Positions 18,253-56,497 of a DNA stretch of 64,000 nucleotides are shown one piece after another. Each line of letters opens with the position of its first letter. The first letter of the stretch is position 1. The notes under the pieces were generated by a model, which did not search any database, had not been told where the DNA came from, and saw nothing but the letters and a program-made list of their open reading frames with translations. The translations under genes and the position numbers were made by a program. This DNA is from Micromonospora profundi (GTDB lineage Bacteria; Actinomycetota; Actinomycetes; Mycobacteriales; Micromonosporaceae), in NCBI RefSeq assembly GCF_011927785.1, contig NZ_JAATJK010000001.1:1426001-1490000 (forward strand), written 5' to 3'.

Positions 18253-18360
18253 CGCGCGACTCGGCCGACGCCGGTCGGTGGCGCAGCACAGCGGGAGATG
18301 GCCGGCTGTGGCGCAGGCCCGGACGATGGTTCTCGTGGCCGGCCGAGATGGGGGAGCAGC

Positions 18361-19458
18361 ATGCACATGCCGATGAGCGCCGACGTCGCCCGGGCGCCGG
18401 CCCCGTCGATCGCCGGAGTGGGCACGGCGGTGTCGCCCGAGTCCTACTCACAGCAGGACGTGCTGGACACCTTCGGCATCGCCGATCCCCGCATCCGTTC
18501 GGTCTTTCTCAACAGTGCCATCCAGCGTCGTCACCTCTCGCTTCCGCCGATGGCCGACGACGGCACACCGTCGTCGGAGACGCAGGCGGATCTGCTCGAC
18601 AAGCACAAGAGGTTGGCTCTCGACATGGGTGTGCGCGCGCTGCGGGCCTGCCTGGACGACGTGGGCGCGACGCTCGCCGACATCCGCTATCTGTGCTGCG
18701 TCACGTCGACCGGGTTCCTGACGCCGGGCCTCACCGCCCTGCTCATCCGGGAGCTGGGAATCGACCGGCACTGTGCCCGCGCGGACGTCGTCGGAATGGG
18801 CTGCAACGCCGGCCTCAACGGGTTGAACACGGCGTCCAGCTGGGCCGCGGTCAACCCGGGTGAGCTGGCGGTGCTGGTGTGCGCGGAGGCCTGCTCGGCC
18901 GCGTACACCCTGGACGCGACGATGCGCACCGCCGTGGTGAACAGCCTGTTCGGCGACGGCGCGGCGGCGCTCGCGGTGGTCGGCGGCGGCAGTCCCAGCG
19001 CCGCCGACGCGAGCGACCACCCCCGCGTCCTCAAGTTCGCCAGCTGCCTCATTCCCGAGGCGATCGACGCCATGCGCTACGACTGGGACGGAGCACAGAA
19101 CCGCTTCAGCTTCTTCCTCGATCCGCAGGTGCCCTATGTCGTTGGCGCGCACGCGGAACTCGCGACGGATCGCCTGTTGGCCGGGACGGGGCTGTGCCGC
19201 AACGACATCAGGCACTGGCTGGTGCATTCTGGCGGCAAGAAGGTGATCGACGCCGTGATGGTGAATCTGGGCCTCAGCCGATACGACGTCCGCCACACCA
19301 CCGGGGTCCTGCGCGACTTCGGCAATCTGTCGAGCGGCTCGTTCCTCTTCTCGTACGAACGTCTTCTGCGAGAGAAAGTCACTGCCTCGGGCGATTACGG
19401 AGTGTTCATGACCATGGGTCCCGGTTCCACGATCGAGACGGCGCTGATCCAGTGGTGA
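18361..19458 (+). CDS. dpgA: 3,5-dihydroxyphenylacetyl-CoA synthase (type III PKS, DpgA)
   Basis: A 365-aa chalcone/stilbene-synthase-type ketosynthase. DpgA condenses four malonyl-CoA to 3,5-dihydroxyphenylacetyl-CoA. The catalytic Cys lies in VVGMGCNAGLNGLNTA (about residue 148); the His is in WLVHSGGKKVID and the Asn region in DFGNLSSGSFLF, giving the Cys-His-Asn set. FLTPGLTALLIRELG and the C-terminal MGPGSTIE also fit. ATG 18361 follows GGGGGAG. The overlap with a DpgB-like gene supports DpgA rather than a generic type III PKS. Confidence 0.85.
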   Translation: MHMPMSADVARAPAPSIAGVGTAVSPESYSQQDVLDTFGIADPRIRSVFLNSAIQRRHLSLPPMADDGTPSSETQADLLDKHKRLALDMGVRALRACLDDVGATLADIRYLCCVTSTGFLTPGLTALLIRELGIDRHCARADVVGMGCNAGLNGLNTASSWAAVNPGELAVLVCAEACSAAYTLDATMRTAVVNSLFGDGAAALAVVGGGSPSAADASDHPRVLKFASCLIPEAIDAMRYDWDGAQNRFSFFLDPQVPYVVGAHAELATDRLLAGTGLCRNDIRHWLVHSGGKKVIDAVMVNLGLSRYDVRHTTGVLRDFGNLSSGSFLFSYERLLREKVTASGDYGVFMTMGPGSTIETALIQW

Positions 19459-23960: not shown

Positions 23961-24059
23961 AGGGCCGCCTCCGTCAGCGTCATTCACGCAGGTGTTCGGC
24001 ACGTTGTCTAAGTCCTACGATGACGGGATCCGTGCCGCTGTCCATCTCGGGCATTGCTC

Positions 24060-27160: not shown

Positions 27161-28147
27161 ATGAAAGCTCTTCGAGCAATTCGCCGTAAGGTGATGACAC
27201 CCAGCCGATCCGCCACCGGGCTGGATGTCCGCGGCTTCTACGTCAAGAGCACTGAGGCCCGCACGCTTCTGGAGTCCATCGGTGGCACGTTCCTCGACGG
27301 CTACGCGATCGCGGCCGAGGCGCGCACGCCGGCCGAGGCCGAGGCGCCGCTGGCGGCCGTGCCGACCCGGTTCCGCGGCTTCGCGCACGAGGGCGCGGCC
27401 ATGGCCTTCGCCGTCCGCGACGCGCTGCGCCCAGGCGGGCGCAACGTCGAGCGGTTCCTGGACGGCGCCGGCGCCGACCACGTCTACATGGCCTACGTCG
27501 GCGTCGGATGGGCGATGGCGCGGGTGCCCCGCATGCGGTGGCCGTCCCTGCACGCCCCCGATCCGCTGCTGCGATGGCTGGTGCTCGACGGCTACGGGTT
27601 TCACCAGGCCTACTTCCGCACCGGGCGCTACGTCTTCGACCAGTACGAGAACGGCTCGCCGCCGTGGCAGGAAACGACGTCGCGGGACTACGCGCCCCGC
27701 GCCGTCGACCAGGGCATCGGCCGGGCGCTGTGGTTCATCGGCGGCACCGACCCCGCCGTCGTGGCCGGCCTGGTCGAGCGGTTCCCGAGCCGCCGCCGGG
27801 CCGACCTCTGGAGCGGGGTCGGGCTGGCCGCCACGTACGCCGGCGGCGCCACCGAGGCGGAGCTGACCGCGCTCTGGGAGCACGGCCGCGACTACCGGGC
27901 GCAGCTGGCCCAGGGCGCGGCCTTCGCCGCCGGCGCGCGAGCCCGGGCGAACCTGATCTGCCCGCACAACGAGACGGCCACCCAGATCTTCTGCGGCCAG
28001 CCGGTGGCGCTGGCCCAGAAGGTGACCGACGAGGCAATGACGGGTCTTCCGGCCGACGGCCCGATGCCGGCGTACGAAGTCTGGCGCCGGCGGGTCTCGG
28101 AGGCCTTTGTGCGATCCGGCCACCTCGAACTGACCGCGACGGAGTAG
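27161..28147 (+). CDS. unbL: DUF1702 enediyne cassette protein (UnbL-like)
   Basis: A 328-aa soluble protein of the DUF1702 family, one of the five genes that define the enediyne warhead cassette (with pksE, tebC, unbV, unbU). Conserved strings include RFRGFAHEGAAMAFAV, GVGWAMARVP, DGYGFHQAYF, DQGIGRALWFIGG and RRADLWSGVGLAATYAGG. Function is unknown; it is thought to help convert the PKS product to the core. It begins the long plus-strand run and ends 3 bp before pksE. ATG 27161 is preceded by AGGAG. Confidence 0.85.
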   Translation: MKALRAIRRKVMTPSRSATGLDVRGFYVKSTEARTLLESIGGTFLDGYAIAAEARTPAEAEAPLAAVPTRFRGFAHEGAAMAFAVRDALRPGGRNVERFLDGAGADHVYMAYVGVGWAMARVPRMRWPSLHAPDPLLRWLVLDGYGFHQAYFRTGRYVFDQYENGSPPWQETTSRDYAPRAVDQGIGRALWFIGGTDPAVVAGLVERFPSRRRADLWSGVGLAATYAGGATEAELTALWEHGRDYRAQLAQGAAFAAGARARANLICPHNETATQIFCGQPVALAQKVTDEAMTGLPADGPMPAYEVWRRRVSEAFVRSGHLELTATE

Positions 28148-28150: not shown

Positions 28151-31100
28151 GTGACCCGCATCGCAATAGTCGGGATGGCCTGCCGCTATCCGGACGCCGA
28201 CAGCCCACGCGAGCTGTGGGAGAACGCCCTCGCCGGGCGCCGCGCCTTCCGGCGGCTGCCGTCGGAACGGATGAACCTCGACGACTACTGGGCCGCCGAC
28301 CCGGCCGCGCCCGACCGCTTTTACGCCCGGACGGCCGCCGTCATCGAGGGCTACCGATTCGACAGGGTGGCGTTCAAGGTGGCCGGCAGCACCTACCGGT
28401 CGACCGACCTGACCCACTGGCTGGCCCTCGACGTCGCCGCGCAGGCGCTGACCGACGCCGGCTTCCCGGACGGCGCGGGCCTGCCCCGGGAGCGTACGGC
28501 CGTGGTGGTGGGCAACAGCCTCACCGGCGAGTTCTCGCGGGCCGGGCAGATGCGCCTGCGCTGGCCGTTCGTCCGGCGTACGGTGGCCGCGGCGCTGCGG
28601 CGGGAGGGCTGGGACGACGACCGGCTCGGCACCTTCCTGGCCGAGCTCGAACAGACGTACAAGGCACCGTTCCCTGGCGTCGACGAGGACACCCTGGCCG
28701 GTGGCCTGTCCAACACGATCGCCGGTCGCATCTGCAACTACTTCGACCTCAACGGCGGCGGCTTCACCGTCGACGGCGCCTGCTCGTCGTCGCTGCTGTC
28801 CGTCGCGACGGCCTGCAACGCCCTGGTCGACGGCACGGTCGATGTGGCCGTGGCCGGCGGCGTCGACCTGTCGATCGACCCGTTCGAGATGATCGGCTTC
28901 GCCAAGACCGGGGCGCTGGCCCGTGGCGAGATGAAGGTCTACGACCGCGGCGCCAATGGGTTCTGGCCCGGTGAGGGCTGCGGCATGGTCGTGCTGATGC
29001 GCGAGGAGGATGCGCGCGACAGCCGCCGCGTGATCGCCACGGTGGCCGGCTGGGGTATGTCGTCGGACGGCAAGGGCGGCATGACCCGGCCCGAGCTCAG
29101 CGGCTACCAGCTGGCGATGCGGCGGGCGTACGAGCGGGCCGGGTTCGGCCTCGAGACGGTGGCCCTGTTCGAGGGACACGGAACCGGCACCCCGGTCGGC
29201 GACGCGACCGAGCTGCGGGCGTTGTCGGAGGCGCGGCGCTCGGCCGGGGCCACCGGGACGCCGGCCGTGATCGGCTCGGCCAAGGCGATGATCGGCCACA
29301 CCAAGGCCGCCGCCGGCGTGGCGGGCCTGATCCGGGCCGCGATGGCCGTGCGTCACCAGGTGCTGCCGCCCGCGCTGGGCTGCAACGACCCCCACGACGT
29401 GCTGACCGCTCCGGACGCGACGCTGCGGGTGCTGCGGCAGGCCGAGGCGTGGCCGGCCGACGTCCCGGTGCGGGCCGGCGTGACCGCCATGGGCTTCGGC
29501 GGCATCAACACCCACGTCGTGCTCGAGAACACGCGGCGGCGCAACGGATTCGACGCCCGCAGCCGGGCGATCGCGGCGGCCATCCAGGACTGCGAGCTGT
29601 TGCTGGTCGACGCCGGCTCGGCCGCCGAGCTGGCTGACCGCCTGCGGCAGCTGACCGAGTTCGTGCCCGTGCTGTCGTACGCCCAGCTCGGTGACCTGGC
29701 CGCCACCCTGCACCGGCAGCTGCGCGACCTGCCCTACCGCGCGGCGGTGGTGGCCCGGTCGCCCGAGGACGCCACGGAGCGCCTGCGCAGCCTGCTCGAC
29801 AAGGTCGAGGCGGGGGAGACCACCGCGTTCAGCGCGGACGGCCGGACCATGCTCGGCCACTTCCCCAAGTGCGGCCAGCTCGGCTTCCTGTTCCCGGGCC
29901 AGGGCTCGGGCCGGGGCACCAGCGGCGGCGCGATGCGGCGCCGGTTCGCCGAGGCGGACGCCGTGTTCGCCAAGGCCGCGCTGCCCACCGACGGCGACAT
30001 GGTGGCGACCGAGGTGGCCCAGCCGCGGATCGTCGCCGGCTCGCTCGCCGGCCTGCAGGTCCTCACCGCGCTCGGCGTGCACGCCACGGTGGCCGTCGGC
30101 CACAGTCTCGGTGAGCTCACGGCCCTGCACTGGGCCGGGGCCATGGACGAGGACGCGCTGCTGCGCCTGGCCGTGCAGCGCGGCCGGGCCATGGGCGAGC
30201 ACGGAATGACCGGCGGGATGGCCCGGATCAGTGCGCCCGCCGCGGACGTCGAGGAGCTGATCCGCGGCGCGGGGGTGGTGATCGCCGCGGCCAACGGACC
30301 CCGGCAGACCGTCGTCGCCGGGCCGGTCGAGGCGGTCGAGGCGGCCTGCGACCGGGCTCGCAACGCCGGGTACGACGCCGGCCGGCTGCCCGTGTCGCAC
30401 GCGTTTCACTCGCCCCTGGTCGCCAAGGCGGCCGTGGTGTTCGGCGGCGCGATTGACGACCACGTCTGGGCGCCGCTGACCGGGCGGGTGATTTCCACCG
30501 TGACCGGCGAACCGGTGCCGGCCGACGCCGACCTGACCGGGCTGCTGCGCGACCAGATCACCGATCCGGTGCTGTTCCAGCAGGCGATCGCGCTGGCCGC
30601 CAAGGAGGTCGACCTGCTGATCGAGGTTGGCCCGGGTCAGGTGCTCTCGGGACTGGCCGCCTCGGCAGACCTGCGCGCGGTGGCGCTCGACACCGACGAC
30701 GAGTCGCTGACCGGCGTGCTGCGGGTGGTCGGGGCCGCGTTCGTGGTCGGCGCGGCCGCGGTCGACTCGCGCCTGTTCCACGGCCGCCTGATCCGGCCCC
30801 TCAAGGTCGGGGCCGAGCAGTCGTTCTTCGCCAGCCCGTGCGAGGCGGCCCCAGCCGACAGCATCGGCGCGGCGGCCCTGGCGGCCGCGCCGGCCCCCGT
30901 GGCTCCGGCCGACACCCCGGCGGTCACGACCGCCGAGCCTGCGGCTTCGGGCCTGGAACTGCTGCGGCAGCTGGCCGCCGAACGGGCTGAGCTGCCGCTC
31001 GACCTGGTGCGCCCGGAAAGCCGGCTGCTCGACGACCTGCACCTGAGCTCGATCACCGTCGGCCAGATCGTCAACCAGGTCGCCAGCCGACTCGGCGTGC

Positions 31101-33688
31101 CGGCCGGGCAGGTGCCGCCGAACTTCGCGACGTCGACAGTGCAGGAGCTCGCGAAAGCGTACGAGGCCCTGTCGGACACCGCCGGGACCGACGCGCCAGC
31201 CCGTTCGGCAGCGCCGGAAGGGGCGGCGCCCTGGGTCCGGCCGTGGTCGGTCGACCTCGACGTCGCCCCGGTCCCACCGCGCGTCGCACCCGAGACAGAC
31301 GGCGCCTGGCAGGTCTTCTCGCCCGGCGACCACCCGTTCGCCGGCGACTTGAGCGACAGCCTGGCCCGGGCCGGGGTGGGCGCGGGCGTCCTGGTCTGCC
31401 TGCCGCCGGACTGCGGCCCGGACGACCTCGACCTGGCCCTGCGCGGAGCCAAGGTGGTGCTGGCGGGCGCGCCGGACCGGCGGTTCGTGCTCGTGCAGCA
31501 CGGCCGGGGCGCGGCCGGCCTGGCCAAGACGTTGCACCTGGAGTCGCCGCCGACCCGGGTCACGGTGGTGCACCTGGCCACCGGCGACGACGCGGTGGCC
31601 CGCGTGACGGCCGAGACCGCGGCGACGGAGTCGTTCGCCGAGGTGTTCTACGACGCCGACGGCACCCGCCGGACCCCGCGGCTGCGGGTGCTGCCGTTCG
31701 AACCGGCCCGGACGGTTCCGGCACTCACGTCCGCGGACGTGCTGCTGGCGACCGGCGGCGGTAAGGGCATCACCGCCGAGTGCGCGCTGGCCATGGCCTG
31801 CGACAGCGGGGCCAGGCTGGCTCTGCTGGGCCGTTCCGACCCAGCCCGCGACACCGAGCTGGCGGCCAATCTGCAGCGGATGACCGAGGCCGGCATCGTG
31901 GTCGAGTACGCGCAGGCCGACGTCACCGACCGTGCGTCGGTCCAGCGCGCGGTGGGCGCGCTCAGCGCCGCCCTCGGCCCGATCACCGCGGTGCTGCACG
32001 GGGCGGGCCGCAACGAGCCGGCGTCGCTGGTCACCCTGGACCGGGACGCGTTCGCTCGTACGCTCGCGCCCAAGGTCGACGGCCTGCACGCGGTGCTGGC
32101 CGCGGTCGATCCGCAGCAGTTGCGGCTGCTGGTCTCCCTGGGCAGCATCATCGGCCACGCCGGGCTGCCCGGCGAGGCGCACTACGCCACGGCGAACGAG
32201 TGGCTGGACGACGCCACCGCCGAGTTCGGTCGGCTGCATCCGCACTGCCGCACGCTCTGCCTCGAGTGGTCGGTGTGGTCGGGCGTCGGCATGGGCGAGA
32301 AGCTGGACGTGGTCGACGCGCTCGACCGCGACGGGGTCAGCGCCATTACGCCCGATCAGGGCCTCGCCGTGCTCCGGCGGCTGTTGTCCGACCCGGACAG
32401 CCCGGGGACGGTGGTGATCAGCGGCCGGACCCACGGGATCGGCACGATGCGCTACGCCGAGCCCGACCTGCCGCTGCTGCGGTTCGTCGACCGCCCGCTC
32501 GTACGCTATCCGGGCGTGGAGCTCGTCTGCGAGGTTGAGCTGAGCGCGGGCACCGATCTCTACCTGGCCGACCACCTGCTCGACGGCAACCAGCTCTTCC
32601 CGGCGGTCTTCGGCATGGAGGCCATGGCCCAGGTGGCGGCGGCCGTCACGGGCCACACCGGCGCGCCGGTCGTCGACGACGCCGAGTTCCTGCGGCCGAT
32701 CGTCGTGCCGCCGCACGGCAGCACCCGCATCCGGATCGCGGCCGTGGACACCGGGCCGGTCGTCGAGGTCGCGCTGCGCAGCGAGGAGACCGCGTTCGGA
32801 GCCGACCACTTCCGGGCCCGGTTGCGCTTCGACGCGACGATCCCGGCGGCCGGGTCGCCGGAGCCCGTCGAGCCCGGCGGGCCCGCCGTCCCGCTCGACC
32901 CGGCGACCGACCTCTACGGCCCGATCCTGTTTCAGGGCCGCAGGTTCCAGCGGCTGCGAACCTACCACCGGGCCGAGGCCCGTGACGTCGACGTCGACGT
33001 GACCGCCGACCTCGCGACCGATTGGTTCGCGTCCTACCTGCCGTCGACGCTGCTGCTCGGCGATCCGGGCGTCCGGGACGCGATGATGCACGGCAACCAG
33101 GTCTGCGTGCCCGACGCCACGCTGCTGCCGCAGGGGATCGACCGGATCGTGCCGGCCGGCGCGGCCATGCACGACGCCGCGGCGCTGCGGTTCCAGGCCA
33201 CCGAACGGTCGCGCGACGGCGACACCTACGTCTACGACGTCGCGCTGCGGGATGAGGGCGGCCGGGTCGTCGAACGGTGGGAGGGGCTGCGCCTGCGCGC
33301 GGTGCGCAAGGGTGACGGCTCCGGCCCCTGGCACCCGGTGCTGCTCGGCTGCTATGTGGAACGCGCGGCCGGGGACCTGCTGGGGTCGCCGGTCGTGGCC
33401 AGGGCGGAACCCGTGCCGATGATCGGCCGGACTGCGCGGGAGTGGGCCGATCGGCTCGGCTCGCGGTTCGAGGCGGCCCAGCGGGTGGCCGAGGCGACCG
33501 GCGAGCCTCTGGACACCGCTGCGACGCGGGTCGAGGCGGCCGGGGCGGGGGACTGGCGGGTGATCGCGGCCGGGCCGGCCGGCTGGGTCGTGCTCGGCCA
33601 CGGCGACAAGCGGGTCGCCACCCTGGTCACGCGACTGTCCGGGGGGCCGGAAACGGTCGCCGTGGCTATGGCGAGCGGAGAGGCGTGA
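28151..33688 (+). CDS. pksE: Enediyne iterative type I polyketide synthase (PKSE), PPTase domain degenerate
   Basis: An 1845-aa multidomain PKS. Order: KS about 1-460 (Cys211 in DGACSSS, His343 in EGHGTGT, His383 in MIGHTKAA), AT about 570-880 (Ser652 in VGHSLGE), ACP about 935-1010 (Ser967 in LHLSSITVGQ), KR about 1190-1450 (ATGGGKGITAE; AHYATANEW), DH about 1460-1730 (YLADHLLDGNQLFP). This KS-AT-ACP-KR-DH order with a central ACP is specific to enediyne PKSs, which make a C15-C16 polyene from acetyl units. They normally end in a PPTase domain and are about 1900-1980 aa. Here the tail after 1735 is only about 110 aa: GEPLDTAATRVEAAG and GWVVLGHGDKRVAT recall its end, but the SH-motif, the GxDxE and WxxKEA motifs are missing. 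A discrete PPTase lies at 37715-38458. Confidence 0.95.
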   Translation: MTRIAIVGMACRYPDADSPRELWENALAGRRAFRRLPSERMNLDDYWAADPAAPDRFYARTAAVIEGYRFDRVAFKVAGSTYRSTDLTHWLALDVAAQALTDAGFPDGAGLPRERTAVVVGNSLTGEFSRAGQMRLRWPFVRRTVAAALRREGWDDDRLGTFLAELEQTYKAPFPGVDEDTLAGGLSNTIAGRICNYFDLNGGGFTVDGACSSSLLSVATACNALVDGTVDVAVAGGVDLSIDPFEMIGFAKTGALARGEMKVYDRGANGFWPGEGCGMVVLMREEDARDSRRVIATVAGWGMSSDGKGGMTRPELSGYQLAMRRAYERAGFGLETVALFEGHGTGTPVGDATELRALSEARRSAGATGTPAVIGSAKAMIGHTKAAAGVAGLIRAAMAVRHQVLPPALGCNDPHDVLTAPDATLRVLRQAEAWPADVPVRAGVTAMGFGGINTHVVLENTRRRNGFDARSRAIAAAIQDCELLLVDAGSAAELADRLRQLTEFVPVLSYAQLGDLAATLHRQLRDLPYRAAVVARSPEDATERLRSLLDKVEAGETTAFSADGRTMLGHFPKCGQLGFLFPGQGSGRGTSGGAMRRRFAEADAVFAKAALPTDGDMVATEVAQPRIVAGSLAGLQVLTALGVHATVAVGHSLGELTALHWAGAMDEDALLRLAVQRGRAMGEHGMTGGMARISAPAADVEELIRGAGVVIAAANGPRQTVVAGPVEAVEAACDRARNAGYDAGRLPVSHAFHSPLVAKAAVVFGGAIDDHVWAPLTGRVISTVTGEPVPADADLTGLLRDQITDPVLFQQAIALAAKEVDLLIEVGPGQVLSGLAASADLRAVALDTDDESLTGVLRVVGAAFVVGAAAVDSRLFHGRLIRPLKVGAEQSFFASPCEAAPADSIGAAALAAAPAPVAPADTPAVTTAEPAASGLELLRQLAAERAELPLDLVRPESRLLDDLHLSSITVGQIVNQVASRLGVPAGQVPPNFATSTVQELAKAYEALSDTAGTDAPARSAAPEGAAPWVRPWSVDLDVAPVPPRVAPETDGAWQVFSPGDHPFAGDLSDSLARAGVGAGVLVCLPPDCGPDDLDLALRGAKVVLAGAPDRRFVLVQHGRGAAGLAKTLHLESPPTRVTVVHLATGDDAVARVTAETAATESFAEVFYDADGTRRTPRLRVLPFEPARTVPALTSADVLLATGGGKGITAECALAMACDSGARLALLGRSDPARDTELAANLQRMTEAGIVVEYAQADVTDRASVQRAVGALSAALGPITAVLHGAGRNEPASLVTLDRDAFARTLAPKVDGLHAVLAAVDPQQLRLLVSLGSIIGHAGLPGEAHYATANEWLDDATAEFGRLHPHCRTLCLEWSVWSGVGMGEKLDVVDALDRDGVSAITPDQGLAVLRRLLSDPDSPGTVVISGRTHGIGTMRYAEPDLPLLRFVDRPLVRYPGVELVCEVELSAGTDLYLADHLLDGNQLFPAVFGMEAMAQVAAAVTGHTGAPVVDDAEFLRPIVVPPHGSTRIRIAAVDTGPVVEVALRSEETAFGADHFRARLRFDATIPAAGSPEPVEPGGPAVPLDPATDLYGPILFQGRRFQRLRTYHRAEARDVDVDVTADLATDWFASYLPSTLLLGDPGVRDAMMHGNQVCVPDATLLPQGIDRIVPAGAAMHDAAALRFQATERSRDGDTYVYDVALRDEGGRVVERWEGLRLRAVRKGDGSGPWHPVLLGCYVERAAGDLLGSPVVARAEPVPMIGRTAREWADRLGSRFEAAQRVAEATGEPLDTAATRVEAAGAGDWRVIAAGPAGWVVLGHGDKRVATLVTRLSGGPETVAVAMASGEA

Positions 33689-34117
33689 ATGGCCGTGGAG
33701 AAATACTACGAATACCGCCACACCGTGGGGTTCGAGGAAACCAACATGGTGGGCAACGTTTATTACGTCAATTATCTGCGGTGGCAGGGCCGGTGTCGGG
33801 AAATGTTCCTGAAGGATAGGGCGCCGGCGGTCCTCGACGATCTGCGGAACGATCTGAAACTGTTCACGCTCAAGGTCGACTGCGAGTTCTTCGCGGAGCT
33901 GGCCGCGTTCGACGAGCTGCTGATCCGGATGCGGCTGACCGAGCTGGCCCAGACCCAGGTGCAGTTCGGATTCGACTACGTGCGGCGCGACGGGGACGGC
34001 GAGACGCTTGTCGCGCGCGGTAGCCAGCGAGTCGCCTGCATGCGCGGGCCCAACACCCGGACGGTTCCGGCTCGGGTGCCGGAGACGCTGGCCAAGGCGC
34101 TGCTGCCCTATGCCTAG
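33689..34117 (+). CDS. tebC: Enediyne hot-dog thioesterase (TEBC/E10)
   Basis: A 142-aa 4-hydroxybenzoyl-CoA thioesterase-like protein that releases the polyene from PKSE. The signature is YRHTVGFEETNMVGNVYYVN with LRWQGRCREMF; Asn19, Tyr29 and Arg37 coincide with residues reported for CalE7, which hydrolyses without an acidic catalytic residue. ATG 33689 directly follows the pksE stop, so the two are translationally coupled, as in other enediyne cassettes. Confidence 0.93.
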   Translation: MAVEKYYEYRHTVGFEETNMVGNVYYVNYLRWQGRCREMFLKDRAPAVLDDLRNDLKLFTLKVDCEFFAELAAFDELLIRMRLTELAQTQVQFGFDYVRRDGDGETLVARGSQRVACMRGPNTRTVPARVPETLAKALLPYA

Positions 34118-34136
34118 GGGGTCGGTGGAGGCAAAC

Positions 34137-34640
34137 ATGGAAAAGCTCCAGGAGACCGTCTTCGAGAAGACATCCCTGCGCCGGGTCTTCGGCGCCTTCG
34201 CGACCGGGGTCACCGTGGTGACGGTGGGTGGCGAGTTCCCGCACGGCATGACCGCCAACTCGTTCACCGCGGTGTCTCTTGATCCGCCGCTGATCCTGGT
34301 CTGTGTCGGGCACGACGCGCTCATGCACGAGGTCCTCGGGCAGCGGACCGCGTTCGCGGTGTCGATCCTGGCCGCCGACCAGACCGGGGTGGCGCGCTAC
34401 TTCGCCGACAAGCGCCGGCCGATCGGGCGGGACCAGTTCGACGCCGTGCCGTGGTCGTCCGGGGCGTGCAGCGGCGCGCCCCTTATCGACGGCTCGCTGG
34501 CTCACCTGGAATGCGCGTTGGAACGGACCCACGAGGCCGGCGATCACACTATCTACATCGGGCGGCTTCTCTCCCTGTGGCGCCGGCCCGGGGATGACGC
34601 ACTGCTCTTCCTGAACGGCGAACTGCGGCACGCCGCCTGA
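34137..34640 (+). CDS. Flavin reductase (SgcE6/HpaC-like)
   Basis: A 167-aa NAD(P)H:flavin reductase-like protein: RRVFGAFATGVTVVTVGGEF, HGMTANSFTAVSLDPPLILVCV, and GSLAHLECALERTHEAGDHTIYIG. It supplies FADH2 to partner monooxygenases; in C-1027 SgcE6 serves this role. The two acyl-CoA-dehydrogenase-fold oxygenases (15693 and 55006) are the likely clients, as no other reductase is encoded nearby. ATG 34137 follows GTGGAGG. Confidence 0.9.
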   Translation: MEKLQETVFEKTSLRRVFGAFATGVTVVTVGGEFPHGMTANSFTAVSLDPPLILVCVGHDALMHEVLGQRTAFAVSILAADQTGVARYFADKRRPIGRDQFDAVPWSSGACSGAPLIDGSLAHLECALERTHEAGDHTIYIGRLLSLWRRPGDDALLFLNGELRHAA

Positions 34641-34767
34641 TCGCGGCCGCTATCGAGCATTGCGCGAGAAGAAAGCAGGCCCGCGCAGAATCCACGATTC
34701 GTACGGCAGTGTTCGCTGCCCCGCCCGGCGTCGGGTGACGCCAATTCCGTAGAGATGAGAGGATCCA

Positions 34768-36726
34768 ATGCGATCAAGCCCCGTCGCGGTGGTCCGCAAA
34801 CTCGCTCCCGCGCTCTTCGTCCTCGCCCTGGCCGCCACGTTGTTCGTGGTGGCGCAGCGGCCCACGGCCTCGGCGGCCGAGAGGGCCGCCCTGAGCTCGA
34901 AGTTCCGGTTCGCCGAGATGCCGATCGCGCTGCCGGACAACCTCCCGAACAAGTCGATTCGGGTGGTCAACCCGCGGTACCAGCACATCCGGTCGTGGAT
35001 CTCGTCGGTCGGCGCGGCCATCTCGGTCAACGACCTCGACAGTCAGGGCGTGGCCAACGACCTGTGCCTCGTGGACACCCGGTCCGACGCGGCGATCGTC
35101 ACCCCGGCCCCGGCAGGCGGCGAGACCTACCAGCCGTTCGTGCTCGACCCGGCCCCGCTGCCCATGAACGACGCGATCGCGCCGATGGGCTGCGTCCCCG
35201 GCGACTACAACGGCGACGGCTGGGCCGACCTGCTGGTCTACTACTGGGGCCGTACGCCGGTGGTGTTCCTACACCGCGGCGAGGCGGGACCGCCGAGCCT
35301 GGCGAAATACCTGCCCATCGAGCTGATCGCGCCGTCCACCGGATCCGACGGCACCTACCAGGGCAAGCAGTGGAACACCAACGCCGTTGCGGTGGCCGAC
35401 TTCGACGGTGACGGGCACCCGGACCTCGGCGTGTTCAACTACTTCCCGGAGAGCGGCGTTCTCGATCCCGACGGGCACCCCAACGTACAGATGAACCACT
35501 CGATGTCGCGGGCCACCAACGCCGGCGGCGCGCACCTCCTGCGGTTCACCCGGGCCACCGCGACCTCGGTCTCCTACCAGGAGCAGCCGGCCATCGATCC
35601 CCGCTACTCCACCGGCTGGACGCTCGGTGCCAGCTCGGCGGACCTCGACGGCGACCTCCTGCCCGAGCTCTACCTGGCCAACGACTTCGGTCAGGACCGC
35701 ATGTTCCACAACCGGTCGACGCCCGGGAACATCAGGTTCGAGCTGGTGGAGGGCAAGCGGGACGCGTTCACCCCGAAGTCCTTGGTTCTTGGGCACGACT
35801 CGTTCAAGGGCATGTCCATCGAGTTCGGCGACCTGAGCGGGACCGGGCGGTTCGACGCGTTCGTCAGCAACATCACCACGTCGTGGGGCCTGGAGGAGAG
35901 CAACTTCGTCTGGGTCAACACCGCGGGCAGCGCGGCCGCCGCCCGGGAGAACCTCTCCGACGGCCGGGCGCCGTTCCGCAACGACGCCGCCGACCTCGAC
36001 ATGGCGTGGACCGGCTGGGGCTGGGACGCCAAGATGGCCGACTTCGACAACAGTGGCCAGCTGGCCGTCGTGCAGGCCTGCGGGTTCGTGCGCGGCACGA
36101 CCAACCGGTTCAACTGGCTGCAGGAGCTGGCCATGAGCAACGACCTGCTGCTCGAGAACCCGGACATGTGGCCCAAGGCCGAGCCGGGCGACGACATCGC
36201 CGGGCACGAACCCATGGCGTTCTGGGTCCGCGACGGCAACGGCCGGTACGCCAACCTCAGCGCCGACCTCGGTCTGGACGCCGACACTACCCCGACCCGG
36301 GGCGTGGCGGTGAGCGACACGGACGGTGACGGCGGGCAGGAGTTCGCGGTCGCCCGCCAGTTCGGACCGCCGGCCTTCTACCGCAACACCGCCGCCGACC
36401 GCGGTGACTTCCTGGGCCTGCGCCTGTACCGCCCGGTGACGTCCGGCGCGGCGGCGATCGGCACGCCCGCCTACGGCGCCAAGGTCGTCCTGACCAGGAC
36501 CGACGGCAGCCGGCAGATCGCCCAGCTCGACGGCGGCGGCGGTCACTCCGGCAAGCGGAGCTTCGACGTGTTCTTCGGCCTCGGCGACGCGGGCGCGCAG
36601 CCGGTGTCGGCCGAGATCAGCTGGCGCGACCTGGACGGCGTTGCCCACACGCAGACGATCAGCTTGGCCCCCGGCTGGCACAACCTGATGCTGACCGACA
36701 AGGCCGAGGAGGTAGCAGCGAAATGA
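34768..36726 (+). CDS. unbV: UnbV-like exported FG-GAP/ASPIC repeat protein
   Basis: A 652-aa enediyne cassette protein. Residues 1-38 form a signal peptide (VRKLAPALFVLALAATLFVV, then TASA-AE). Repeats with calcium-type loops follow: DYNGDGWADLLVYYWG (about 148), DFDGDGHPDLGVF (about 211), DLDGDLLPELYLAND (about 292), DTDGDGGQEFAV (about 515); the C-terminus has an ASPIC/UnbV-type domain (GKRSFDVFFGLGDA). Predicted to form a beta-propeller outside the membrane. Role unknown but conserved with PKSE; its stop overlaps unbU. Confidence 0.9.
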   Translation: MRSSPVAVVRKLAPALFVLALAATLFVVAQRPTASAAERAALSSKFRFAEMPIALPDNLPNKSIRVVNPRYQHIRSWISSVGAAISVNDLDSQGVANDLCLVDTRSDAAIVTPAPAGGETYQPFVLDPAPLPMNDAIAPMGCVPGDYNGDGWADLLVYYWGRTPVVFLHRGEAGPPSLAKYLPIELIAPSTGSDGTYQGKQWNTNAVAVADFDGDGHPDLGVFNYFPESGVLDPDGHPNVQMNHSMSRATNAGGAHLLRFTRATATSVSYQEQPAIDPRYSTGWTLGASSADLDGDLLPELYLANDFGQDRMFHNRSTPGNIRFELVEGKRDAFTPKSLVLGHDSFKGMSIEFGDLSGTGRFDAFVSNITTSWGLEESNFVWVNTAGSAAAARENLSDGRAPFRNDAADLDMAWTGWGWDAKMADFDNSGQLAVVQACGFVRGTTNRFNWLQELAMSNDLLLENPDMWPKAEPGDDIAGHEPMAFWVRDGNGRYANLSADLGLDADTTPTRGVAVSDTDGDGGQEFAVARQFGPPAFYRNTAADRGDFLGLRLYRPVTSGAAAIGTPAYGAKVVLTRTDGSRQIAQLDGGGGHSGKRSFDVFFGLGDAGAQPVSAEISWRDLDGVAHTQTISLAPGWHNLMLTDKAEEVAAK

Positions 36727-37718
36727 CGACGACCGAGAGCGTCACGACCACCATCCCCGTCTCACCGGCCCCGATTCCGCCGGTGCTGCAGGCGGCGGCG
36801 GACAAGCGGGCCACGCGGCCACCCCGCGTGGACAGTCGTGACCCGCGCTACCTGGCCTTGCGCAACTTCGCCATCTCGATGAGCATCTTCAATATTCTCG
36901 GCTACACGATTCTCGGCTTCGAGCAACCGTGGTCGTGGCCGTTCTTCGCGCTGGCGATCGGCCTCGGCCTGGAGATCGTGATCGGGCTGATCGCGGCGTG
37001 GGCCAGCAGGACAGTCCCCGCGTTCGCCGGGCACGGGGCGTGGGGGGTCTACACCTATCTGCTCCCGGCCTACATCACCACGCTCGCGGTCAACATGCTG
37101 CTGTACGCGAACGACCGCTTCTGGCCGATCGCCCTGGCCGTCGTGATCGGCGTCGGCCAGAAGGCGGTCCTCATCGCGCCGATCAACGGGCGCTGGCGGC
37201 ACTTCATGAACCCGTCCAACTTCGGCATTACCGCGACGCTGGTCCTCTTCTCGTGGGTCAACATCGCCCCGCCGTACCACTTCACCGAGCACGTGCCCGA
37301 CGTGTTCCGGATCATGATCCCGGTCATCCTGCTGACCGCCGGCACGGTCCTCAACTCCGTCCTGACCAAGAAGGTGCCGTTGATCCTGGGCTGGCTCGGC
37401 TCGTTCGTGATCCAGGCGCTGATCCGCTGGTGGGGCTGGGACATCGCCCTGTACGCGGCCCTGGTGCCGATGACCGGCGTGGCGTTCCTGTTGTTCACCA
37501 ACTACATGGTGACCGACCCCGGCACGACCCCGAGCAAGCCGCGGGCGCAGTTCATGTTCGGCGCGAGTGTCGGCACCGTCTACGGCGTCCTGATGATCTT
37601 CGACGTCGTGTACACGCTGTTCTTCGCGACGACGCTGGTCTGTCTCGGCCGGGGCCTGATGTGGTGGATCAAGTGGCTGCGGGAGCGCCGCCAGGCGCCC
37701 GCCCCGCAACCGGTGTGA
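36723..37718 (+). CDS. unbU: UnbU-like integral membrane enediyne protein
   Basis: A 331-aa multi-pass membrane protein with about 8 hydrophobic segments (for example AISMSIFNILGYTILGF, YTYLLPAYITTLAVNMLLYA, VILLTAGTVLNSVL). RHFMNPSNFGITATLVLF and NYMVTDPGTTPSKPRAQFMFG recall the RnfD/NqrB-like fold of the enediyne UnbU family, possibly a redox or flavin-linked membrane protein. It overlaps unbV (ATGA) and the PPTase gene behind it. Exact function unknown. Confidence 0.88.
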   Translation: MTTTESVTTTIPVSPAPIPPVLQAAADKRATRPPRVDSRDPRYLALRNFAISMSIFNILGYTILGFEQPWSWPFFALAIGLGLEIVIGLIAAWASRTVPAFAGHGAWGVYTYLLPAYITTLAVNMLLYANDRFWPIALAVVIGVGQKAVLIAPINGRWRHFMNPSNFGITATLVLFSWVNIAPPYHFTEHVPDVFRIMIPVILLTAGTVLNSVLTKKVPLILGWLGSFVIQALIRWWGWDIALYAALVPMTGVAFLLFTNYMVTDPGTTPSKPRAQFMFGASVGTVYGVLMIFDVVYTLFFATTLVCLGRGLMWWIKWLRERRQAPAPQPV

Positions 37719-38458
37719 AGCCGGCCGTCGTCGACTGTCGGGTGTGGTGGATCGACCCGGCGCACGCTCCCCGGTGGTGCGAGGAGCTGCTGAGCGAGCC
37801 GGAACGGGCCCGCGCCGAGTCGATCCACCGCCGTGCCGCGCGACGGCGGTTCACCACGGCCACCGCGCTGCTCAAGGTCGCGGTGGCCGTGACGTCCGGA
37901 GGCAGTCCGGGCGGGGTCGAGATCCGCCGCGCCTGCCCGGACTGCCGGCGACTGCACGGTCGTCCCGTGCTGGCCGGGGGCGCGCCGTACGTCTCGCTCT
38001 CGCACTCGGGTGACCGGGTGGCGGTGGCGCTGTGCGCCGACGCGCCCGTCGGGGTCGACGTCGAGCAGGTCGACGCCGGCATCGACGTCGACGCCATGGT
38101 GCCGTTCGTGCTCGGCGCGTCGGAGCAGCCGGCGTTCCGCGCGGTGCGCAGTCGACAGGCTCGTGTCGAGGCGTTCTTTCGCTGCTGGACGCGGAAGGAG
38201 GCGGTGCTCAAGGCGACCGGGGACGGGCTGCGGATTCCGATGCGGGAGGTGACGGTCGGGACGCCGTACGGCCCGGCCCGGCTGATCGGATTCCCTGGCC
38301 GGCCGGAGCTGCCGGGGACGACCCGGATCGTCGACCTGCGGGCCGAGCCGGGCTATCTCGGCGCGGTCGCGGTGCTCACCGCGCGGCCCGTACGCGTCAT
38401 CGAGCTCGACGGCCGGGACGCGTTCGCGGCCACGGCGGAACGGCACGGTGGAAGCTGA
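37715..38458 (+). CDS. Discrete Sfp-type 4'-phosphopantetheinyl transferase
   Basis: A 247-aa PPTase that transfers phosphopantetheine from CoA to carrier-protein serines. All three motifs are intact: VSLSHSGDRVAVAL (94-107), PVGVDVEQV (111-119) and FFRCWTRKEAVLKATGDGL (155-173). GTG 37715 overlaps the unbU stop, placing it inside the cassette operon. Canonical PKSEs carry their own PPTase domain; this pksE lacks its key motifs, so this enzyme probably activates the PKSE ACP and perhaps the NRPS carriers too. Whether it arose from the PKSE tail or was recruited from an NRPS/Sfp lineage is open; the motif style looks like Sfp type. Confidence 0.9.
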   Translation: MKPAVVDCRVWWIDPAHAPRWCEELLSEPERARAESIHRRAARRRFTTATALLKVAVAVTSGGSPGGVEIRRACPDCRRLHGRPVLAGGAPYVSLSHSGDRVAVALCADAPVGVDVEQVDAGIDVDAMVPFVLGASEQPAFRAVRSRQARVEAFFRCWTRKEAVLKATGDGLRIPMREVTVGTPYGPARLIGFPGRPELPGTTRIVDLRAEPGYLGAVAVLTARPVRVIELDGRDAFAATAERHGGS

Positions 38459-38523
38459 ACGGTCGCGGCAGCCGTGCCACGGTCAAGACAACCGCGTCGT
38501 CCCGTCGACGCCTACGAAAGACG

Positions 38524-39099
38524 GTGAAATCCGTGGCGCACATCGAACTTGGAATCGACGAGACCATACTCCCCGGGATCATGGGTCTCCTCGCCTACCG
38601 GCCGCAGACCGGAGGCCCCCTGCAACAGCTGGCCAACGCGCTGCTCGTCGAGCCGAACTCGCTGTCGCGGGGCGACCGCGAGCTGATCGCCGCGTACGTG
38701 TCCGGCCTGAACCGGTGCGAGTTCTGCCGTGACTCGCACTCGGCCTTCGCGGCGGAACAGCTCGAGGGCGGTTCAGGCCTGGTGGCCGACGTGCACGCGG
38801 ACCCCGCTTCAGCCCCGATCTCGACGCTGATGAAGGCCCTGCTGCCGATCGCCGCCGCCGTGCAGCAGGGCGGGCGTGAGGTGACCCCGTCCCTGGTGAG
38901 CCGGGCCAAGGCGGCCGGGGCGACCGACGTCGAGATCCATGACACGGTGCTGATCGCCGCGGCGTTCTGCATGTTCAACCGTTACGTCGACGGGCTGGGC
39001 ACGCGGCCCGGCCAGGACAGCAGCCAGTACGCCGCGATGGCCAAGCTGATCGCCACCACCGGCTACGACGTGTCGCCCGGCACGCGGGGCGACGGATGA
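38524..39099 (+). CDS. AhpD/carboxymuconolactone decarboxylase-like protein
   Basis: A 191-aa all-helical protein of the AhpD/CMD superfamily. The redox motif CEFCRDSHS (CxxC followed by His) is at about residues 64-72, and SLVSRAKAAGATDVEIHDTVLIAAAFCMFNRYVDGLGT is the typical C-terminal helix pair. Such proteins act as alkylhydroperoxidases or peroxidase-like enzymes. Start taken as GTG 38524; GTG 38533 is an alternative. It heads a four-gene overlapping run (AhpD, SCP2, E8-like, GMC) inside the warhead operon, suggesting handling of reactive or hydrophobic intermediates. Confidence 0.8.
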   Translation: MKSVAHIELGIDETILPGIMGLLAYRPQTGGPLQQLANALLVEPNSLSRGDRELIAAYVSGLNRCEFCRDSHSAFAAEQLEGGSGLVADVHADPASAPISTLMKALLPIAAAVQQGGREVTPSLVSRAKAAGATDVEIHDTVLIAAAFCMFNRYVDGLGTRPGQDSSQYAAMAKLIATTGYDVSPGTRGDG

Positions 39100-50352: not shown

Positions 50353-51659
50353 CCTCCGGAGCCCGCCTGCACGTCGACGACCTGCATCGCAGCGTGTCGA
50401 GCCGGCAGGTCGCGGCCATGACCTTCCTCAACGAGATCGTGGCCGAGTTCCCCGCGGCGATCTCGTTCGCACCGGGCGCCCCGTACGAGCCCTTCTTCGC
50501 CGACATCGAGGTCGGTCCGCTGCTGGACACCTTCGCCGCGGCCCGGCGGGCCGCCGGGCTCAGCCCGGAGACGGTGCGCCGGCACCTGTTCCAGTACGGC
50601 CCGAGCAAGGGAATCATCAACGATCTGGTCGCCGCCGCGCTGCGGGCCGACGAGGCGATGGACGTCCAGCCCGACGCGATCGTCATGACTGTCGGCTGTC
50701 AGGAGGCGTTGTTCCTTACCCTGCTCACGCTGCACCCGCCGGGCTCCGTCCTGGCGGTTCCCGATCCGTCGTACGTCGGTGTGACCGCCGCCGCCGACGC
50801 GCTGAACATCCCGGTCCACCCGGTGCCCGACGACGGCGCCGGCCCGGACCTGGTCGCTCTCCGCGCGGCGGCGGCGCGGGAGAGGACGGCCGGCCGTCGC
50901 CTCCGCGCGCTGTATGTCTCGCCCGACTTCGCCAACCCGTCCGGCAGCCGGCTCACCCTGGCCGCCCGGCACCGGCTGCTGGAGACGGCCGCGGACCTCG
51001 ACCTGATCGTGATCGAGGACAACCCGTACGCGTTCACGGCCGCCGCAGATGATCGGCTTCCCAGCCTCAAGTCGCTCGACCGCGAGGGCCGCGTCGTGCA
51101 CACCGGAACCTTCTCGAAGGTCGCGGTGCCGGGCGCCCGGGTGGGTTACGTGGTCGCCGACCAGTGGGTCGAGTCGCGCCTCGGTCCGCCGGTGCGCCTG
51201 GCCGCCATGATCGCAGCCGGCAAGAACGCGGTCACCCTCAACACCTCCCCGCTGGCCCAGGCGGTGATCGGCGGGCTCCTGATCGAGCACGGCGGTTCCC
51301 TCGCCGCGCTCGGCCGGCACAAGGCGGAGCAGCTGCGGAGCAACCGGGCCGTCCTGCTCGAACGGCTCGTCCACCATTTCGGCGAGCCGGACCGGCCCGA
51401 CGCCCGAGTTCGCTGGCAGGCGCCCGAGGGTGGCTACTTCGTGCAGATGGAGCTCCCAGTCGAGGCCGACGACGCGCTGTTGCGCTACTCCGCGGAGACG
51501 TTCGGTGTGCTCTGGACCCCGATGCGTGGCTTCTACCTCGGCGCGGGCGGGGAACGCCGGATCCGGCTGTCCTGTTCCGCTCTGGAGCACACGGAGATCG
51601 TCGACGGCGCCGCCCGGCTGGTTGGCTTCGTCGGCGCGCTGCCCGGGAACCGCCGATGA
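50331..51659 (+). CDS. Class I/II PLP aminotransferase, HpgT-like
   Basis: A 442-aa fold type I aminotransferase: FAPGAPYEPFF, MTVGCQEALFLTLL, YVSPDFANPSGSRLTL, IVIEDNPYAF, and the PLP lysine in TGTFSKVAVPGARVGYV; RIRLSCSALE holds the carboxylate Arg. In Dpg pathways HpgT converts 3,5-dihydroxyphenylglyoxylate to Dpg. GTG 50331 overlaps dpgC by 22 bp (GGAG ribosome site inside dpgC), which strongly links it to that reaction. A different alpha-keto substrate is possible. Confidence 0.82.
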   Translation: MDETATLTSGARLHVDDLHRSVSSRQVAAMTFLNEIVAEFPAAISFAPGAPYEPFFADIEVGPLLDTFAAARRAAGLSPETVRRHLFQYGPSKGIINDLVAAALRADEAMDVQPDAIVMTVGCQEALFLTLLTLHPPGSVLAVPDPSYVGVTAAADALNIPVHPVPDDGAGPDLVALRAAAARERTAGRRLRALYVSPDFANPSGSRLTLAARHRLLETAADLDLIVIEDNPYAFTAAADDRLPSLKSLDREGRVVHTGTFSKVAVPGARVGYVVADQWVESRLGPPVRLAAMIAAGKNAVTLNTSPLAQAVIGGLLIEHGGSLAALGRHKAEQLRSNRAVLLERLVHHFGEPDRPDARVRWQAPEGGYFVQMELPVEADDALLRYSAETFGVLWTPMRGFYLGAGGERRIRLSCSALEHTEIVDGAARLVGFVGALPGNRR

Positions 51660-54600: not shown

Positions 54601-54898
54601 TCGGCTGGCCACCCTCGAAGCGCCGGGCGCCGCCGTGGTGCTGGCCTGGGGCGATCTGGTGGCGGTGGCGGTCGAGGCGGCCCACGAACTGCGTGAGCGC
54701 ATCGGCGTCGCGCCGAGGGTGCTGGCGGTGGAGCCGACGGGACCGCCCCGACCGGATCGCCGTCCAAAGGGGATCATCAGCCGCGACCGCGAGCTGCTTC
54801 GCGAGTGGCGGGACGCTGATCTCGTCCTGCTGGCCCTGGACCCCGGCGCGGCGATGGACTGGTCGCTCCTGGCGTCCGCGGTCGCCGGGACGGGCTGA
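51656..54898 (+). CDS. NRPS: degenerate C - A - TE-like tail, no carrier
   Basis: A 1080-aa protein. C-like domain about 1-410: the HHxxxDG core reads LHAAVGG (128-134), keeping the second His but not the first or the Asp. A domain about 420-920: A3 [12 protein letters not shown]4 ISFDIAMLELY, A5 HTYGPTEAS, A7 YRTGD, A10 STGKVDR. Pocket residues read by eye: D-I-L-Q-S-G-T-M-Y-K, partly like Gly-type codes; not a secure prediction. About 960-1080: AVVLAWGDLVAVAVEAAHEL recalls a type I thioesterase GxSxG helix, but the Ser is absent. No carrier motif. It would load a carrier in trans (for example 13968). Start overlaps the aminotransferase stop (ATGA). Confidence 0.82.
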   Translation: MSEQIRVNRLALYRAEQTAFWAGGLQHSRAVLVEGAIDPATVAAACAGLRRRHAALRQRFDDTGGEPRLVPDDGGPPEVVAGATRSLVTALAEAAADASSAFELRERPGFRVGVYPVEGDRTLVVLTLHAAVGGRSAAARLLWELGGQPAPPLAVSHDGTTASEARQPIAWPTSRGRGRSRGRSITTAWSLGDGDTVLLQRFAADVGVPVASVLRCALRVLLFRETGERDILIGSPRPGHIGEAAVTPEDIQILPHALGPRIPGAEAVRAEHAATAHPIHHPDALDLLLSRASRPERHAGAELQVGFRDTGTGPATWAGRVACDVDLPAAHSPYELELEVALRGDLIAGAWRGAAGLFDEQTLERMGRSYTTLIRELVRNPAGPIGDLDVIHPDDQARLAAWEAPTPSVSGGRTVVDLVGEWIGRTPGEPAVILADAVHTYRELDDAASRIAAALRALALPPASPVGILVARRVELPAILLGVARAGRAAVPMDPSHPVERLAHIVGDSGCGAVIGDGALPDDQVSALGAPVIPLSGLLAADPEPDAGRPRPDSLAYVLYTSGSTGRPKGVGVTHRGLANCLVATRELLDFRPGRSLLAVTTISFDIAMLELYLALTSGGRTILATTAQARSGPQLQAVLARHRPDIMQATPMTWHILFATGWPGDPGLTVSCGGDVVSPELASRLTACTREFWHTYGPTEASMYAVCERLPREPQTSIVPVGRPLPGVWLRICDAAGRQVPPGVIGELHIGGVGVARGYVGAPGPTAERFVPDPTCAGGRLYRTGDLARWRADGRLELRGRNDRQVKIRGHRIEPDEIESVLGRHPEIAYAAIVVTGHDSGSKRIVAFLQPRQPEPGPDLVTRVSAHARQALPAYMMPSSYALMGAMPLTSTGKVDRAALARIRPPRPNGAAADREAPPLMREPLAADVRPLRWTGREDRPVLALLRGDEAWPTEAVAEFERWFRVAILDGSGGNARDVAARLATLEAPGAAVVLAWGDLVAVAVEAAHELRERIGVAPRVLAVEPTGPPRPDRRPKGIISRDRELLREWRDADLVLLALDPGAAMDWSLLASAVAGTG

Positions 54899-56241: not shown

Positions 56242-56276
56242 TCCCCCTTTCGCACCGACGAGCGGAAAGAGATGCC

Positions 56277-56486: not shown

Positions 56487-56497
56487 GCGAGGGAATC

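Follow-up and report, generated by a model that had tools for sequence, protein, structure and literature searches.

The window, i.e., the whole 64,000-nucleotide stretch of Micromonospora profundi DNA analysed here, belongs to a genome assembled as one 6.93-Mb contig, and all features described below are located on the plus strand. The gene for the DUF1702 protein of an enediyne cassette (27161..28147, PF08012) lies directly upstream of the PKSE gene (28151..33688), which encodes a protein of 1845 aa with the domains KS-AT-ACP-KR-DH and a PPTase remnant, as assigned by Pfam and residue alignment. It is followed by genes for a 4HBT-type thioesterase of the cassette (TE, 33689..34117, PF13279), a flavin reductase (34131..34640, PF01613, start provisional), unbV (34768..36726, PF07593 and PF13517) and unbU (36723..37718). 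The last gave a weak PF03116 match below the cut-off and is conserved after unbV in relatives. Next comes the gene for a discrete Sfp-type PPTase of 247 aa (37715..38458, PF01648), the GTG start of which overlaps the unbU stop (GTGA), and then a carboxymuconolactone-decarboxylase-family gene (38449..39099, PF02627, start provisional). The positions given in the preliminary description for PKSE, the TE start at 33689, unbV, unbU and the PPTase were all recovered. The cassette genes of the window are open and complete. We infer that the PKSE-TE-unbV-unbU-PPTase run is transcribed as an operon; a promoter and terminator scan gave counts close to those of shuffled controls.

The ACP domain (residues 937–1002, 30959..31156) was recognized by a weak PF00550 match (E 0.022, below the cut-off) and carries the target Ser967 in the motif LHLSSI, while the DH domain (residues 1457–1721, 32519..33313) matched PF21089 and PF14765. 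The residues KS C211, AT S652, ACP S967, KR Y1345 and DH H1475 were the same in all 82 other aligned PKSEs. At columns at least 98% identical among these 82 proteins, the window PKSE matched at 169/169 positions in KS, 61/61 in AT, 13/13 in ACP, 70/71 in KR and 70/70 in DH, and therefore the protein is under constraint. The KS dN/dS between the window and Micromonospora sp. RP3T PKSEs was 0.09. Thus, the domain order and active sites are those of an enediyne PKSE (for ACP, by the weak Pfam match and the invariant Ser), and the TE, unbV, unbU and DUF1702 partner genes are present, unbU being assigned through synteny. What is missing is the integral C-terminal PPTase with the SH, GxDxE and WxxxExxxK motifs. 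Since the window protein is nested within the PKSE tree (SgcE and CalE8 themselves were outside the trees), it is a PKSE by descent and a variant without PPTase activity.

The C-terminal tail (residues 1728–1845, 33332..33685) was identified by tail alignment and hhalign as the remnant of the integral PPTase domain. In the PKSE alignment, the deletion junction falls between residues 1754 and 1755 (33412..33413), where 61–62 residues present in the relatives L004, L005, L009, L113 and L114, and 69 in the intact L063, are missing; compared with four full-length members of its clade, the window protein is short of 62 residues. The deleted half corresponds to the columns holding SxSH and GxDxE in the relatives; as for the third motif, its W, E and K are all gone. 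The kept C-terminal half (33413..33685) was fitted by hhalign to positions 101–194 of the 210-position intact-domain profile, with a gap at the WxxxECLxKA core. With one half of the domain deleted and the W..E..K core lost, the PPTase domain of the window PKSE is a remnant. The preliminary description had reported a tail devoid of all three motifs, and this was borne out by alignment, motif scoring and hhalign. It had also taken two fragments of the tail for the end of the domain, and they indeed match the conserved consensus segments GExxDxAATRV and GWxVFxxGxLRIATxVT. The possibility that the motifs are present but diverged was rejected for the window, in which the alignment shows them to be absent, although it is partly true for the relatives. 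Structure prediction, proposed earlier as a check, gave a confident AlphaFold2 model across most of the tail. A structure search with the PPTase half returned DH matches among the rows listed, because DH fills the lists. PF01648 was not found in the window PKSE, but it was likewise unlisted for all 120 PKSE matches, most of them motif-intact; its absence is therefore uninformative, and Pfam was dropped as a test for the cis domain.

A sequencing or assembly error could also remove part of a PPTase domain, and the region is high in GC and the finding comes from a single genome. However, the PKSE of RP3T (L003), which is 92% identical and was assembled independently, has the same deletion with the same junction; therefore, the deletion is not a sequencing error. 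Moreover, five clade members are without the motif residues yet do not have this deletion. The chance that the truncation is an artefact, through a frameshift or a false deletion, is practically negligible.

The discrete 247-aa protein, in contrast to the tail, contains SxSH, GxDxE and WxxKExxxK, the motifs of Sfp-type (group II) PPTases. It aligns with Sfp through GxDxE and WxxKExxxK, and the residues of these motifs do not vary across 36 homologues chosen out of 120 listed. The earlier claim of a PPTase with intact motifs overlapping unbU was thus confirmed. PF01648 was the only domain found in this protein and TE is a separate gene, so that the PPTase-Y-TE arrangement of the RerA/RerB type is not present. 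When the integral domain was compared with discrete PPTases, hhalign gave a probability of 93.6 (E 2.2e-7) with the motifs in register, as expected for homologues.

Among 354 Micromonosporaceae genomes, a PPTase of at least 63% identity occurs in eight, including that of the window, and none of the other matches listed exceeds 48%. The PKSEs beside these eight PPTases comprise seven with a decayed cis domain and one relic (L115), whose PPTase match also has a stop. The five long-tailed clade members (L004, L005, L009, L113 and L114) have substituted catalytic residues, and each contains an orthologous PPTase after unbU. The neighbourhood is conserved and the decay among the relatives is graded. 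The window-clade PPTases are monophyletic (support 98). Wherever resolution is sufficient in both, the PPTase tree is congruent with that of the PKSEs, and the groups window+L003 and L004+L009+L113 were recovered in each. A metagenome protein, P0139, in which the six motif residues read HGEWSK, was placed as a sister of the window clade (support 100); this one protein suggests that the metal-binding residues may have gone first. The longest-contig figure for P0139 (28177) is the same as that for the PPTase P0009. However, P0009 falls, without resolution, inside the other clade PPTases rather than as their sister, and therefore its joint inheritance with P0139 lacks support. The window also contains a type III PKS gene (18298..19458), homologues of which were found in six of the seven other window-clade genomes and in none of the seven neighbour-clade genomes.

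Two genomes allow a comparison of intact and decayed domains side by side. In RP3T, another PKSE cassette, with 6/6 motif residues, lies about 37 kb away from the first. This genome has five PF01648 matches, and the one nearest to the second PKSE, about 35 kb off, is the first cluster's own. In Phytohabitans suffuscus, the decayed L005 has its PPTase about 4 kb behind TE, while the nearest listed PPTase to the intact L058 is about 680 kb away. Both contrasts support a transfer of activation from cis to trans.

The same relatives bear on the question of whether the PKSE is non-functional and the tail deletion belongs to the decay of the whole cluster. In the closest relative, RP3T, parts of TE, unbV and unbU are deleted while the PPTase gene is kept; L115 is a relic, and the unbU match of L005 is split into two pieces in different frames. 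Against this, the window cassette is uninterrupted, its tested catalytic residues are kept and its KS is strongly constrained, and L004, L009, L113 and L114 retain unbroken PKSE, TE, unbV and unbU matches despite their substituted residues. We consider a non-functional PKSE in a decaying window cluster very improbable.

Another candidate client of the PPTase is encoded further downstream, where the NRPS genes begin 12.7 kb beyond it. One has condensation and adenylation domains (51164..54898) and the other two PP-binding stretches (56111..61426), further possible clients. The discrete PPTase could then be an enzyme dedicated to NRPS carrier domains, with the PKSE ACP primed by the other Sfp-like PPTase of the genome, a 221-aa ORF that is the only other PF01648 match and could prime the ACP. 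When wide flanks were examined, NRPS matches were found near each of the four clade relatives probed (L004, L005, L113 and L114, the last at a distance of at least 21 kb) and near none of four neighbour-clade loci, each probed over 65–82 kb. Also in favour of this explanation, L038 has a decayed cis domain and NRPS nearby, yet its genome has no match to the window PPTase at 1e-8, which also speaks against a replacement by this enzyme. On the other side, the PPTase gene sits after unbU within the PKSE-TE-unbV-unbU run, at a distance from the NRPS genes; its retention in RP3T despite the partial loss of TE, unbV and unbU fits both readings. An exclusive dedication to NRPS is rather unlikely in our view, although the operon PPTase may also, or even mainly, serve the cluster's NRPS carrier domains. 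As a general cause of the loss, NRPS was rejected: it fits the window clade and L038, but not the 22 Streptosporangiaceae-type decayed PKSEs, none of which had an NRPS match within 10 kb (a weak test, since this range also misses the more distant NRPS matches of L004 and L005). The intact PKSE L060 has an NRPS match within 10 kb.

According to motif scoring of 83 PKSEs, the cis domain was decayed (at most 3/6 motif residues) in 30 and near-intact (5–6/6) in 53; the preliminary description therefore generalized too far in stating that an integral PPTase domain stands at the end of known PKSEs. At least three changes between the intact and decayed states are needed on the PKSE tree; we read them as losses. 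The association between decay and PPTase across PKSEs is given without tree correction, with three independent pairs, too few for a sign test. The median dN/dS in the PPTase core was 0.47 for 13 decayed pairs vs 0.40 for 15 intact pairs, a contrast too small to prove relaxed constraint. In addition, the intact L041 has a PF01648 match 33.6 kb off, contrary to a simple association. Among the 22 Streptosporangiaceae-type decayed PKSEs, a PPTase lies about 15–29 kb off in 10 and was not found within 35 kb in 12. By eye, it is part of its own conserved cassette with a regulator, an acyl-CoA carboxylase beta-like and a small epsilon-like protein. This cassette holds the PPTase even away from PKSE, and therefore the enzyme may be a resident gene; the linkage was not accepted as proof of recruitment. 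When plasmids were searched with the PPTase, a single partial match was obtained, in a Nonomuraea record.

Based on the above sequence comparisons, we suggest the following course of events. The window PKSE would descend from an ordinary enediyne PKS that carried a PPTase as its integral C-terminal domain. A free-standing Sfp-type PPTase gene, probably acquired before the cis domain decayed, lies directly after unbU in the clade and is inherited with PKSE. Its presence would have made the cis domain redundant, so that the catalytic residues could be substituted, and about 62 codons would have been deleted in the window/RP3T lineage. The kept C-terminal half, predicted to fold, probably remains as an appendix with a structural role. 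The 247-aa PPTase is most likely the enzyme that phosphopantetheinylates Ser967 of the PKSE ACP in trans, and it probably primes the cluster's NRPS carrier domains as well. We regard this redundancy and priming in trans as the best reading and as quite probable. The replacement of a cis domain by a trans enzyme, put forward in the preliminary description, is thus supported by the substituted residues in the clade, the agreeing trees and the two within-genome contrasts. We lean only slightly towards the broader proposal that self-priming is not general among PKSEs, with at least three catalytic losses among the PKSEs sampled, two different Sfp-type PPTase lineages accompanying the loss in the two larger lineages, and a non-catalytic pseudo-PPTase fold kept as it is needed next to DH.

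A lineage that preserves graded stages of the loss, and whose gene run includes a possible replacement, makes the transfer of activation from cis to trans directly testable. If it is true, such a PKSE expressed with only its TE would remain unprimed in any host that does not prime it, and the discrete PPTase should be added. Furthermore, the finding points to a group of enediyne-NRPS clusters that are still uncharacterised.

The enediyne PKS is commonly described as activating itself, and its integral PPTase is regarded as a defining feature of this type of synthase. SgcE (C-1027) and CalE8 (calicheamicin) have TE, unbV, unbU and DUF1702 partners and an active integral PPTase at the end; SgcE is reportedly named a phosphopantetheinylating PKS in the title of a paper. 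They share with the window PKSE the KS-AT-ACP-KR-DH order and these partners, whereas the window protein has only a PPTase remnant at its C-terminus, with the discrete enzyme encoded downstream. In the portion of the source available, CalE8 is credited with a PPTase domain (PMC3107222). No report of a PKSE without its PPTase was found in the literature searched, as far as the accessible texts go, subscription papers being mostly outside its scope. The granaticin (PMC9813960) and rishirilide (PMC9769936) clusters contain an in-cluster Sfp-type PPTase, as does the window; however, granaticin is a type II PKS product (PMC9813960), and the parts of both sources available mention no replacement of a cis domain. 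RerA of Rhodococcus erythropolis PR4 is, like the window PKSE, iterative, related to enediyne/PUFA synthases and without its own PPTase, a neighbouring protein serving instead, and inactivation of the PPTase gave colourless cells (PMC11563203). In contrast to the window, the ACPs of RerA are arranged in tandem and RerB has the composition PPTase-Y-TE, with no decayed cis domain reported and unbV/unbU unnamed (PMC11563203). According to the available part of PMC3098273, PUFA synthases with PfaE also combine an iterative synthase with a separate PPTase, and the arrangement varies within the family, the PPTase being incorporated in pfaC in Pseudoalteromonas sp. DS-12. They are, however, other synthases, for which the discrete PPTase is the usual state.

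Up to the end of its DH domain, the PKSE (28151-33688, 1845 aa) is a normal enediyne-type iterative PKS by its Pfam domains. Columns with an identity of 98% or more across 82 other PKSEs were taken as conserved, and the window protein agrees with them at 169/169 positions in KS, 61/61 in AT, 13/13 in ACP, 70/71 in KR and 70/70 in DH. None of the 82 differs from it at the KS Cys, AT Ser, ACP Ser, KR Tyr or DH His. The short tail of about 110 aa mentioned in the preliminary description was borne out, with 118 residues following the DH vs. 187 to 216 in 38 intact domains (alignment A3). The PPTase domain lacks its N-terminal half. The deletion junction lies between residues 1754 and 1755, where four members of the window's clade have 62 residues, L114 of the same clade has 61 and the intact L063 has 69. 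The rest of the tail aligned by hhalign to positions 101-194 of the 210-position intact-domain profile, and the W..E..K core has gone through a second loss. Based on this tail alignment, in which both the N-terminal half and the core are gone, the loss of the cis PPTase motifs is real. The DH together with the remnant was predicted by AlphaFold2 to fold confidently (mean pLDDT 92.1), with lower values at the last residues.

Judged by profile, the intact C-terminal domain of PKSEs is a PPTase: a comparison of the two families by hhalign (38 intact domains, 36 discrete PPTases) gave a probability of 93.6 and an E-value of 2.2e-7, with the SH, GxDxE and W..E..K core in register. PF01648 is not among the Pfam entries for PKSEs (the window PKSE and 120 PKSE matches), so its absence from the window PKSE is no evidence. 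The discrete PPTase (37715-38458, 247 aa) is a PF01648 member, can be aligned to Sfp of Bacillus (1qr0, E 3.8e-5) across the GxDxE and WxxKExxxK motifs, and overlaps unbU by GTGA, in agreement with the preliminary description. The Mg ligands of Sfp are reported to be Asp107, Glu109 and Glu151, of which the first and third are essential and the second is not (PMC4103896).

Six motif residues (H; D, E; W, E, K) were scored in 83 PKSEs, comprising 80 loci (the most similar of 153 relatives), the window, L113 and L114; the cluster relic L115 was left out. All six were found in 49 PKSEs, five in four, four in none and three or fewer in 30. The four PKSEs with 5/6 deviate solely at the second acidic residue, which is not essential. 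Among the 30 decayed PKSEs, L025 has lost neither the first nor the third ligand and, by its residues, may be partly active, while the contig of L011 ends before the Lys position. The best 120 of 2083 DH-tail matches, which include the window protein and others from the first set, scored 6/6 in 86, 5/6 in four, 4/6 in two and three or fewer in 28. One of the proteins found, P0182 (1854 aa), appears to carry a deletion of its own.

In a FastTree phylogeny of PKSE residues 1-1725 (tail excluded, root not inferred), the decayed state needs three changes, forced by the starred branches. They fall on the window's clade of seven, on L038 (Micromonospora sp. ALFpr18c) and on a clade whose 22 members come from Streptosporangium, Nonomuraea, Microbispora and comparable genera, here called Streptosporangiaceae-type. 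Since the domain is intact on the deep branches, we interpret the changes as losses. A larger tree, to which 23 proteins from the set of 120 were added and in which 4/6 counted as decayed, needs four changes. The loss in L038 is a separate one (residues HDREAQ), and an NRPS match lies within 10 kb of this locus.

The window's deletion is common to L003 (Micromonospora sp. RP3T), where TE, unbV and unbU are partly deleted (L003:15558-16657) and the PKSE and PPTase are kept. The other members (L004, L005, L009, L113 and L114) have long tails, with small gaps in L114, in which SS replaces SH, Ala replaces the first Asp and the Lys is lost; their gene order is PKSE, TE, flavin reductase, unbV, unbU and PPTase. 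Two genes of L005 (Phytohabitans suffuscus), unbU and the GMC oxidoreductase gene (18958-19913 and 22420-24050), are each matched in two pieces that lie in different frames. L115 (G246 C1:2998500-3017000) is a relic of the same cluster, with the PKSE down to the DH and a tail remnant, an internal TGA stop in the PPTase match, and no unbV or unbU match. Among 354 Micromonosporaceae genomes, the PPTase was found at 63% identity or more only in these eight. The clade PPTases are monophyletic (support 98); the window with L003, and L004 with L009 and L113, form groups in both the PKSE and PPTase trees, while the placement of L005 and L114 in the latter is not resolved. The metagenome PKSE P0139 is sister to the whole clade (support 100), with residues HGEWSK, i.e., it keeps H, W and K and lacks the first and third ligands. 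The longest contig listed for P0139 and for the PPTase P0009 is 28177 in both cases, and from this equality alone we infer that they are neighbours. P0009 falls inside the clade PPTases, unresolved there, and not as their sister.

A relative of the window PPTase (E < 1e-35) was present in the genome for 29/30 decayed vs. 9/53 intact PKSEs. L051 was scored present on partial matches (E 5e-25; 28/30 without it), L058 (P. suffuscus) absent though its genome has the PPTase of L005 (10/53 by genome), and L054 (9e-35) and L047 (1.3e-30) narrowly miss the threshold. On the same contig and no more than 35 kb away, a PPTase was found for 17/30 decayed vs. 1/53 intact PKSEs (L041); this linkage may be undercounted, since contigs may be short and the PF01648 matches listed end at weak E-values. 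The Fisher values (2e-13 for genome, 9e-9 for linkage) ignore relatedness, and there are only three independent pairs, too few for a sign test to decide. In the Streptosporangiaceae-type clade, the PPTase belongs to another lineage and stands in its own conserved cassette (L116-L137), near the PKSE or not. In some genomes this cassette lies downstream of the PKSE, at about 15-29 kb, and in others on another contig; the other genes in it, identified by eye, encode regulator-like, acyl-CoA carboxylase beta-like and epsilon-like proteins. RP3T has a second PKSE cassette (L165) about 37 kb on along the same contig, with 6/6 residues; among all five PF01648 matches, the PPTase nearest to it is that of the first cluster, about 35 kb off. 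In P. suffuscus, the decayed L005 has its PPTase about 4 kb behind TE, and for the intact L058 the nearest among the matches listed is about 680 kb off.

On this comparative evidence, the proposed replacement of the cis domain by a trans PPTase is well supported. Against it, the median dN/dS of the PPTase core was 0.47 in 13 decayed vs. 0.40 in 15 intact pairs (chosen by us), only a weak hint of relaxed selection, and L038 lost its residues though no match to the window's PPTase was found in its genome. At 1e-60, a single PKSE match was found in the window genome, along with two PF01648 matches, and the other PPTase of this genome may be the priming enzyme.

Under the replacement reading, the cis domain would have become redundant through a PPTase that serves NRPSs and primes the PKSE as well. 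The window has NRPS genes (51164-61426) with PP-binding domains, and NRPS matches lie around L004, L005, L113 and L114 (for L114 at 21 kb or more). No NRPS match was found around the four loci probed (65-82 kb each) out of seven in the neighbour clade (Catellatospora and Hamadaea), the sister of the window's clade in the first tree; in the larger tree, an intact group (L057, L053, L055, L013, L019 and L029) is nearer (support 94). A type III PKS homologue occurs in six of the seven other clade genomes, within 20 kb of the PPTase in five; the seven genomes of the neighbour clade have none. The type III PKS (18298-19458) and the enoyl-CoA-hydratase-domain protein (48706-50352), together with the NRPS genes, suggest an enediyne-peptide hybrid product, perhaps with a dihydroxyphenylglycine-like unit, as we presume from resemblance.

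A cluster described from P. suffuscus, with one enediyne PKS, one type III PKS and 13 NRPSs, is probably that of L005; the terms "PPT" and "phosphopantetheinyl" are absent from the main text of that paper (PMC7692728). In Herbidospora, a PksE of 1795 aa is given as KS/AT/ACP/KR/DH (PMC4599437), and its length suggests that here, too, the PPTase domain is missing.
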